Assembly: GCA_020073105.1 (NCBI GenBank)
Contig: JAIQFW010000016.1
Coordinates: 1-36,347, forward strand
From: Terriglobia bacterium
GTDB taxonomy: Bacteria > Acidobacteriota > Terriglobia > Terriglobales > Acidobacteriaceae
Direction: 5' to 3'
Length of the DNA: 36,347 nt
The notes under the pieces: model-generated
What the model saw: the letters and a program-made list of their open reading frames with translations, nothing else
The model's database searches: none
Told to the model about the DNA's origin: nothing
Program-made: the position numbers and the translations under genes
In this document: piece by piece, positions 32,982 through 36,262 of the stretch
How positions within the stretch are numbered: position 1 is the first letter of the stretch
How the letters are laid out: every line of letters starts with the position of its first letter

Positions 32982-33034
32982 TCTCAGTAGCTAACTGGAC
33001 TAGTTCACGGGACCCCTGCCCTTCGTTGGCCTTG

Positions 33035-33099
33035 GGTGGCGCAGCGTTTCAACGCTGCGATAGGGGTTCTTTCATGAGTACGGGCTTTAGCCCCTGAAG
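33035..33099. repeat. Family D two-hairpin repeat
   Basis: The first hairpin is GCAGCG TTTCAA CGCTGC and the second is GGGCTTTAGCCC followed by CTGAAGG. It is the counterpart of 25444-25507. Most of it lies inside the 3' end of the endonuclease coding frame. Confidence 0.6.
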
Positions 33100-33729
33100 G
33101 ACTCGACCCTCGCGCATCCTGGGGTGGCCCATGTCTCGCCGCTTTTGCGAGACATGGGAACTGGCGTGTTCCGGACGGGGATCCGGACACTCACTGCCCG
33201 CCACCAGCAATGCACATCGCCGCTCCACAACAATCTGTTCTCTGGGCTTGCCGTCGCGCTGGCAGGCCATGAGACACCAGGCTTCGCGGTAGCGCTCAAA
33301 CTGTCCTCCTCGCTTCGGGGTGCGATGAGGGAACAAGCGGATCGCCAGGTGCGAGCCCACGGCATGAACCGGGATGACATACCACACATCCCGGGGCACG
33401 ACATAGGCAACCAGGAAATCAACTTGCTCCGAGCTGTACGTCTTCTTCTTGTGGCGTGCCACGGAGTGGTGGGTGTTCAGGCAATAGGCGTTGCCGAACA
33501 TGGCCTGTGTGGACTTGACCTGGACACGCCACAGGCGGCGCCCGGAATCAAGGATGAAGTCGTAGCGCTCGCTGTCGCCATAGGGCTTGGTGACGCCGAA
33601 GCCTAATTTCGCGGCCTTGTGCATGAAGGCGAGTTCGGCAACTTCGCCCTGTCGTTTACGGGGAGGCGCGTTCTGCCGCCGGAGTGTTTTTCCAGCCCGT
33701 GAGACTGGAATGTCAGATTCCTTTTTCAT
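33049..33729 (-). CDS. PD-(D/E)XK endonuclease with repeat-derived tail
   Basis: A 226-residue protein whose first ~155 residues resemble the group I intron-associated PD-(D/E)XK endonuclease family. The site is a basic RQGEVAELAF helix (Glu29, Glu32), Asp57 in ERYDFILDSG and the Gln-Val-Lys of RVQVKST (residues 70-72). Further family-like segments are EQVDFLVAYVVPRDVWYVIP and ERYREAW (about 146-151). From about residue 190 the sequence is unlike the family. Residues 191-201 are read from a REP hairpin (33128-33158) and the last 16 from a family D repeat, so the natural stop has been lost or displaced. The ATG at 33729 is preferred; an ATG at 33816 would add 29 residues. No intron is visible nearby. 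Confidence 0.72.
   Translation of the reverse strand: MKKESDIPVSRAGKTLRRQNAPPRKRQGEVAELAFMHKAAKLGFGVTKPYGDSERYDFILDSGRRLWRVQVKSTQAMFGNAYCLNTHHSVARHKKKTYSSEQVDFLVAYVVPRDVWYVIPVHAVGSHLAIRLFPHRTPKRGGQFERYREAWCLMACQRDGKPREQIVVERRCALLVAGSECPDPRPEHASSHVSQKRRDMGHPRMREGRVLQGLKPVLMKEPLSQR
33128..33158 (+). repeat. Family B REP hairpin, copy 1
   Basis: A 12-bp perfect stem CCCATGTCTCGC/GCGAGACATGGG with 7-base loop CGCTTTT. It lies inside the endonuclease frame. The loop orientation defines it as forward. Confidence 0.85.
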
Positions 33730-34029
33730 GAGAGAAGAGGGCCTGTAAACCCTGAGGTTTGTCTGTGTGTTTGGGAACGCGGATCGCCGAGAGACAAAAA
33801 AGAGAGTGCGGCCCATGCCGCGCTTGGAAGACTCCCTATATATTCAGAATAGCAAACCGAAAGTTGGACACGATTGGCGAAGTTGTTTCTGGAAGCGAAT
33901 CAGCAAGGTATGGAGAAAAGTTCAAGTCACAGGGCTTGACAAGAATTTTTGGGAAGCTGGCGGAGAGGGGCAAGAGAGCGGAAATTTCCCGTTTTGGGAA
34001 GAAAAAGGGTGGTTTTCTCCAGCGGGTGC

Positions 34030-34060
34030 CCCACGTCTCGCCGCTTTTGCGAGACGTGGG
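34030..34060 (+). repeat. Family B REP hairpin, copy 2
   Basis: Stem CCCACGTCTCGC/GCGAGACGTGGG with the same CGCTTTT loop. Compared with copy 1 the fifth stem base and its partner have both changed (T-A to C-G), keeping the stem. It lies 84 bases before the RAYT remnant. The stretch 33730-34029 before it shows no convincing gene. Confidence 0.85.
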
Positions 34061-34144
34061 ACTCTTCCCCGTCCACTGCCGATCCAGGAATACGCTGTTC
34101 GCCAGTCACAGACCCGTTTTCCCGTCTGGAATTACCTTGCTCCC

Positions 34145-34472
34145 GTGCCTACCGACCTCAAGCGCTACTACGGTGCAGGCGATCTGCACTTCATCACATC
34201 CAGTTGTTACCAGCGGCGCCCCCCACCACATCTGGCAACCACGTTTCTATGACTTCAACGTCTGGACGGAGCGCAAGCGCATCGAGAAGCTACGTTACAT
34301 ACACCGTAACCCGGTGACCCGCGGACTGGTGGAGTCCCCGGAGCAGTGGCGCTGGAGCAGCTTTCGTTCTTACTTCTACGGAGAACCGGGATTGGTCCGC
34401 ATTAACGCGACCGACATCTTGCAGATGAAGATCGGAAATCCGGCAGCGGGGCCCTACACAGTCTGCAGATAG
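34145..34472 (+). pseudogene. RAYT (REP-associated Y1 transposase) with internal deletion
   Basis: The N-terminus (PTDLKRYYGAGDLHFITSSC, then YQRRP) and the C-terminus (IWQPRFYDFNVWTERKRIEK, then YIHRNPVTRGLVESPEQW and WSSFRSYFYG) both match IS200-like REP-associated tyrosine transposases. They are in different frames and abut near 34220-34230, whereas an intact protein would have roughly 80-100 residues between them. The missing part should contain the HUH metal motif and the catalytic tyrosine region, so the copy is inactive. The probable start is the GTG at 34145. The C-terminal part remains open to a stop at 34472. REP hairpins lie on both sides, as expected for this family. Confidence 0.85.
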
Positions 34473-34482
34473 CAGGCCAGGT

Positions 34483-34513
34483 CCCATGTCTCGCAAAAGC
34501 GGCGAGACATGGG
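34483..34513 (-). repeat. Family B REP hairpin, copy 3 (reverse)
   Basis: The same 12-bp stem as copy 1, but with loop AAAAGCG, so it is inverted relative to copies 1 and 2. It begins 10 bases after the RAYT remnant stop. Copies 2 and 3 thus frame the remnant in opposite orientation. Confidence 0.85.
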
Positions 34514-34572
34514 GCACCCGGCGATTTTCAGAGGGTGGGACGGGCACCTTACAACCTCTGTAGATTTCGATT

Positions 34573-34617: not shown

Positions 34618-34851
34618 ATGCAAATCGTTCAAATCGTGCTGGATAAAAAGCTGTTACACGCCGCCGACCAAGCCGCGAAGCGCACTAGGCGAAACCGGTC
34701 CGCTCTGGTGCGCGACGCCCTGCGGGAACATCTCCGTCGGTTGGAACTGCGAGCCAGTGAAGAGCGCGACCGCGAGGGCTACTCGCGACAGCCGCAAGCC
34801 GACGCGGAAGCGCGGAGTTGGGAATCGGAGGTCACGTGGCCGGAAGAATAG
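34618..34851 (+). CDS. RHH (CopG/MazE-like) antitoxin
   Basis: A 77-residue protein with a ribbon-helix-helix N-terminus: the strand VQIVLDKKLL, then helices HAADQAAKRTRRNRSALVRD and ALREHLRRLELRA. The acidic C-terminus (ending ESEVTWPEE) is likely the toxin-binding tail; SW-EW endings of this kind are common in antitoxins paired with MazF. It should neutralise MazF and repress its own promoter through the upstream operator. The start is the ATG at 34618, without a visible Shine-Dalgarno. Its 3' end overlaps the toxin gene by 16 bases. Confidence 0.87.
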   Translation: MQIVQIVLDKKLLHAADQAAKRTRRNRSALVRDALREHLRRLELRASEERDREGYSRQPQADAEARSWESEVTWPEE

Positions 34852-35183
34852 CCCGAGGCCAGATAGCCAGAGGTGAAGTTCGGCTCTACCAGTTTGCCGC
34901 GCCCGACAAGAAACGACCGGCCCTCGTGCTCACGCGCAACAGCGCCATCGCCTATTTATCCACGGTCACGGTTGCGCCTATCACTTCTACCATTCGCGGT
35001 GTGCCATCGGAAGTCGTTCTGCACGAGGAAGACGGCATGAAGTCCCCTTGTGCCGTAAACTTGCACAACGCGGTGACGGTATCTCAACAGCGGTTAGGAA
35101 GACGCGTGGCCCAGCTTAGTGCCGCACGGATGAATGAAGTGTGTGCGGCCCTGCGGTTCTCTCTGGGTTGCGATTCGAACTAG
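34836..35183 (+). CDS. MazF-family endoribonuclease toxin
   Basis: A 115-residue MazF/PemK-type protein, expected to cleave RNA at short sequence motifs. Family features are EVRLYQFAAPDKKRPALVLT at the N-terminus, the strand STVTVAPITSTIRGVPSEVV, the conserved CAVNLHNAVTVS and the C-terminal helix MNEVCAALRFSLG. I choose the GTG at 34836 because GGAGG lies just upstream and homologues begin MAGRIARG. A 15-base tandem duplication near the start produces IARGQIARGEV, an extra five residues before the usual GEVRLY. Its stop codon lies inside the left arm of the inverted-repeat element at 35178. Confidence 0.88.
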   Translation: MAGRIARGQIARGEVRLYQFAAPDKKRPALVLTRNSAIAYLSTVTVAPITSTIRGVPSEVVLHEEDGMKSPCAVNLHNAVTVSQQRLGRRVAQLSAARMNEVCAALRFSLGCDSN

Positions 35184-36176: not shown

Positions 36177-36262
36177 AAACTGTAAAGGATGTCCCGGGAC
36201 AAACTGTATGTCCAGTCCCACGACATGGTTTACAGAGTGTCCCGGGACATCCTTTACAGTTT
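36177..36262. repeat. IS-end-like inverted repeats, head to head
   Basis: Perfect 25-base arms at 36177-36201 and 36238-36262 each contain TGTAAAGGATGTCCCGGGAC. Inside, a weaker second unit (CTGTATGTCC... facing CATGGTTTACAG) is also inverted, so each side carries two related units over about 43 bases. Repeated units at the ends are typical transposase binding sites. The two ends abut with no gene between them. Confidence 0.6.

Follow-up and report, generated by a model that had tools for sequence, protein, structure and literature searches.

We propose that a predicted nuclease gene in a 36,347-nucleotide stretch of an acidobacterial genome (Terriglobia bacterium, contig JAIQFW010000016.1; hereafter the window) has very probably lost its native stop codon and now ends in a tail of about 36 residues that is mostly repeat-derived and likely disordered. 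The reading frame, the identities of the repeats and the point at which conservation ends are direct observations, and the order of events, the transposase involved and the neutrality of the tail are the parts of this scenario that we infer.

The gene (33049..33816, minus strand; 255 codons counted from the first ATG) runs without a stop to a TGA at 33051–33049, as reading-frame analysis showed. Residues 54–167 match the PDDEXK_5 family (PF11645) with 75.4 bits against a curated cut-off of 26.1, which places the protein in this family, and a comparison of the family profile with the PDB gave a sole match by sequence, I-Ssp6803I (2OST; E = 5e-26). The same structure was the top fold match in Foldseek (E = 2.3e-11; TM-score by target, 0.78), in agreement with an I-Ssp6803I fold, and the AlphaFold2 model of the core is confident (pLDDT mostly 85–97). 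Although the nuclease core thus has both the PD-(D/E)XK fold and the sequence family in common with I-Ssp6803I, the latter ends just past the core, with neither of the two C-terminal additions described below (that is, a Cys tail and a repeat tail). The core is unbroken (0 internal stops and 0 frameshifts), keeps the conserved residues of the family and has a coding-type base composition (GC3 minus GC2 = 0.23). Given that the start Met of homologues aligns with Met30 of the frame (33729), translation probably begins there, yielding a protein of 226 amino acids. Six members of the family are found in the same genome, and 49 of the 200 genomes surveyed within its taxonomic family contain at least one; judged by its sequence, the gene is of a mobile, homing-endonuclease-like type.

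The first-pass annotation of this DNA had claimed that the PD-(D/E)XK frame reads through a family B REP and then a family D repeat before it meets a stop, and the frame, coordinates and repeat counts bear this out. A 38-nt REP-B element (GGGTGGCCCATGTCTCGCCGCTTTTGCGAGACATGGGA; 33122..33159, plus strand) contributes residues 220–232 to the minus-strand frame, residue 220 being the first codon within it, so that exactly 36 residues (220–255) extend from the REP to the stop. A 20-nt spacer (33102..33121, with no strand assigned; ~6–7 residues) is followed by the family D bipartite repeat (about 33034..33101, plus strand), the minus strand of which supplies the last ~17 residues and the TGA; the new stop codon sits in the loop of the first family D palindrome, and the element continues beyond it to 33034. 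The earlier estimate of about 36 repeat-derived terminal residues therefore holds for the distance from REP to stop but is too generous as to origin: because the spacer is not demonstrably repeat, only ~29–30 of the 36 residues, those inside recognised repeats, are certainly repeat-coded. Over the Cys tail, and likewise over the REP tail, modelled pLDDT is about 47–58, and the repeat-coded extension is most likely disordered, outside the fold and near-neutral.

Both elements belong to repeat families of the same genome (5.14 Mb in 308 contigs), in which copies were counted by pattern searches. The 38-nt REP-B pattern has 11 copies with sharp ends, against none for the reversed pattern, and one copy (C35:47250–47287) is identical to that in the nuclease gene at 38 of 38 nt. 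Outside the GTCTCGC/GCGAGAC stem, the next base pair differs among copies (T-A, C-G or G-C), which leaves pairing mostly intact. REP-B is thus a palindrome within the 20–40 bp size range of REPs, present in several sharp-ended copies (if rather few for a REP family), and inverted copies of it flank an intact RAYT gene (REP-associated tyrosine transposase) on contig C18 as well as a RAYT remnant in the window. Since neither a GTAG nor a CGTC tetranucleotide tag was present at its end (most copies start GGGTGCCCC and two start GGGTGGCCC), we refer to it as REP-like rather than as a GTAG or CGTC REP. None of its 66 frames (six in each of 11 copies) contains a stop codon, against an open share of 70% for random 38-mers of similar GC; family D carries stop codons in most frames. 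The latter comprises a 5′ palindrome (here GGTGGCGCAGCGTTTCAACGCTGCG), then ~20–25 nt and then GGGCTTYAGCCCCTGA, a two-palindrome layout common to most copies of GGGCTTYAGCCCCTGA; this second part has 8 matches in the genome, and the 5′ palindrome, searched as GGCGCAGCGYTTCARCGCTGCG with up to 2 mismatches, has 11, with 0 control matches in both cases. An Rfam search matched no family. Near the end of the window (36180–36262), CTGTAAAGGATGTCCCGGGACA also occurs in inverted copies ~40 nt apart.

Comparison with homologues indicates where the native protein ended. The core is conserved in nearly all relatives up to (F)E(K/R)YREAW, past which the tails diverge. In the subfamily of the nuclease, the core is followed by a Cys tail of the form C...C...RC......C..CPxR (here residues 181–214; 33175..33276, minus strand), from which the nuclease is missing one Cys. 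That such a tail (C...C...C...C..CP) is conserved behind the core in one subfamily makes metal binding possible as a prediction. Twelve Cys-tail members (L007, L025, L038, L051, L054, L055, L068, L094, L098, L099, L100 and L120) stop 0–5 residues past C-P-x-R or its equivalent (CPRK in L007 and CPLK in L068), which corresponds to residues 210–214 of the query, and three others (L029, L056 and L063) have longer ends. Alignment occupancy falls from 0.91 at ORF residues 180–189 to 0.31 at 210–219, 0.11 at 220–229 and 0.03 at 240–255. Taken together, the stops of the Cys-tail relatives and this drop suggest that the native protein ended no more than a few codons away from the edge of the REP, with its stop at or right after the end of the Cys tail, even though homology past CLMAC is weak by itself (5.6 bits against the tail profile for residues 186 onward alone). 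As no ortholog with a native stop was found at this locus, the ancestral state is reconstructed from relatives of about 33–46% identity.

Aligning homologues to find the end of conservation thus puts the last 36 residues outside the family, Cys-tail relatives stopping where the REP starts in the query. It had been argued at the outset that homologues carrying the same 36 residues in genomes without these repeats would speak against a repeat origin; no relative among the 88 collected has them. A scan of the genome contigs with one peptide, taken from the REP part of the tail, returned matches in other genomes (L037, L039 and L040), all of them REP copies in ORFs of 50–82 amino acids with no nuclease.

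On the basis of these observations, we envision that the ancestral PDDEXK_5 gene ended a few codons past C-P-x-R, as its Cys-tailed relatives do, that REP-B, likely spread by a RAYT of the C18 type, came to sit at the 3′ end of the gene next to family D, and that the native stop was lost. As REP-B is open in all six frames, it cannot halt a ribosome, and a gene without its stop is read through into the next repeat; translation would thus pass REP-B and terminate at the first in-frame stop, within family D, giving a nuclease with a ~36-residue, mostly repeat-derived tail outside the fold. Whether the REP removed the stop on insertion or was in place before the stop was lost bears on the order of events only and not on the REP-coded tail itself. 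The REP may already have been present in the 3′ flank when a point mutation or a small deletion later destroyed the stop, with the same protein as outcome and no causal part for insertion. REPs or similar hairpins lie 2–20 nt past an intact stop in several relatives (L004, +2; L032, +8; L035, +16; L017, +18; L124, +19), those in L032 and L035 being REPs, which makes a REP just beyond the stop a common point of departure. We consider this order quite conceivable, if somewhat short of an even chance, given that nothing discriminates directly between it and insertion and that no intermediate is known. Of the initial claim that repeat insertion displaced the old stop, the displacement stands, since relatives end at the REP, but insertion as its cause does not follow, stop loss giving the same sequence.

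A more radical objection is that the read-through reflects a sequencing or assembly artefact, or a decaying pseudogene without a product, in which case there would be no REP-coded tail in the cell. The assembly is fragmented, so an error at the native stop is conceivable, the Cys tail is one Cys short of the family motif and the adjacent RAYT is already broken; however, the intact core with its conserved residues and coding-type composition argues against this reading, and with the frame open all the way between core and D repeat, one wrong base call could explain the read-through only if it fell exactly on the native stop. We therefore regard an artefact or pseudogene as unlikely, and the preferred reading remains that of a translated nuclease extended by repeats.

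Repeats also meet the coding regions of other members of the family. In an independent PDDEXK_5 nuclease (L070; G025:C27:92300–94300), the last ~12 residues are REP-coded with a TAG stop at the REP edge, and more copies of the same REP lie just downstream. Two further nuclease relatives (L016 and L129) carry CHPERSE-type repeat peptides inside the tail, upstream of a conserved C-terminal PMER.M.QWAQRV..LY.RKR, so repeats land inside these tails as well.

The candidate mobiliser of REP-B is probably a RAYT of the type found on C18, where an intact copy lies between inverted REP-B elements. In the window, a pattern search placed one REP-B copy 5′ of the nuclease gene (34024..34061, plus strand) and an inverted copy (34482..34519, minus strand) at the two ends of a RAYT remnant (34150..34475, plus strand; NCBIfam NF047646, profile positions 98–146, E = 5e-12). 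The profile matches the C-terminal part only, and an N-terminal piece just ahead, in another frame, was recognised by eye. The intact RAYT ORF (L172; G000:C18:21375–21818) carries a member of its own REP family in frame within the coding sequence (...VCDPRSRKTSETWGTQL...), besides the two flanking inverted REPs, and two other RAYT ORFs of the genome (L174, G000:C41; L175, G000:C246) run into their own downstream REPs, with C-terminal or nearby residues REP-coded. Adjoining the remnant (34620–35183), a short ORF precedes a weakly MazF-like one in a toxin–antitoxin-like layout, the MazF-like match (NCBIfam E = 0.005) being far under the cut-off.

In a synteny comparison through the CHAD gene that neighbours the nuclease, the flanks (up to 1.5 kb) of 29 further CHAD loci all lacked the nuclease, so the locus as a whole looks lineage-specific. 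At the four closest of these loci (65–75% identity), an ORF starting MPT(L/F)AAVDIGSNS, which we take to be Ppx/GppA-like, lies ~0.1–0.9 kb from the CHAD gene. No ancestral allele was found in the comparison set, which includes a single genome of the genus.

The repeats might also matter as RNA. Folding predicts a strong REP hairpin inside the coding part and, across the new stop, one of 8 bp; the region as a whole folds more stably than shuffled sequences (z = −2.3), and only the D hairpin spans the stop. As the REP is translated in this gene, it is not an ordinary 3′-UTR REP, and known REP effects concern REPs located after the stop (PMC12306157); these hairpins might conceivably influence termination or mRNA decay, the latter in the sense of the mRNA-stability effect raised in the first-pass annotation. 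Long hairpins (stem length at least 12) in the 150 nt past the stop were found at 11 of the 88 nucleases and at 8 of 264 control genes overall (p = 0.002), the controls having been defined by a simple rule on ORFs and base composition instead of a gene finder, whereas the comparison with controls that have an intergenic 3′ flank (5 of 78) is not significant (p = 0.20). The idea of a special REP association with nuclease 3′ ends was dropped on account of this second comparison: exposure to REPs simply comes with being a stand-alone gene in repeat-rich intergenic DNA.

Recruitment of the tail, in which the REP and D residues or the mRNA hairpins would serve the nuclease (through DNA binding, stability or translation control), appears to us highly improbable. 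REPs no more than 15 nt from a stop have been reported to be able to stall Escherichia coli ribosomes (PMC12306157), and both the D hairpin across the new stop and the better-than-shuffled folding of the region are in line with such a role. Against it, the tail is predicted to be disordered and occurs in no relative, and REPs adjoin these nucleases no more often than they adjoin other genes whose 3′ flank is intergenic. A near-neutral extension remains the preferred reading.

REP-coded C-termini in bacteria have already been published, and the nuclease is one more example. Di Nocera et al. (2013; PMC3733652) described REPs near or overlapping coding regions, also at the ends of ORFs, reported that GTAG REPs often give flanking ORFs their stop codon, and suggested that C-terminal REP residues may leave function unaffected. 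The nuclease resembles these cases in that a REP sits in frame where a conserved coding region ends and is missing from homologues, but differs in its mostly GGTG-type repeat head, in a stop that comes from a second repeat family and in its host, a PDDEXK_5 nuclease. Rickettsia palindromic elements, the classic translated palindromes, are likewise palindromic repeats translated in frame inside unrelated proteins (PMC10969869); whereas they are about 150 bp long and lie in frame in many genes, the repeat described here is 38 nt, extends a C-terminus and is among very few coding repeat cases seen in its own genome.

The REP-coded tail opens no new mechanism, and its value is that of a well-documented case of how a short mobile palindrome, stop-free in any frame, can replace the end of a protein. 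It also advises caution, in that predicted C-termini in repeat-rich acidobacterial genomes may be repeat-derived and not functional. One can further speculate, as a long shot, that in Acidobacteria the unconstrained C-terminal tails of selfish PDDEXK_5 nucleases, and those of the repeats' own RAYTs, are colonised time and again by REP-like repeats because these are open in every frame; if so, new C-termini would keep arising from translated repeat tails, some of them now and then being retained for function.
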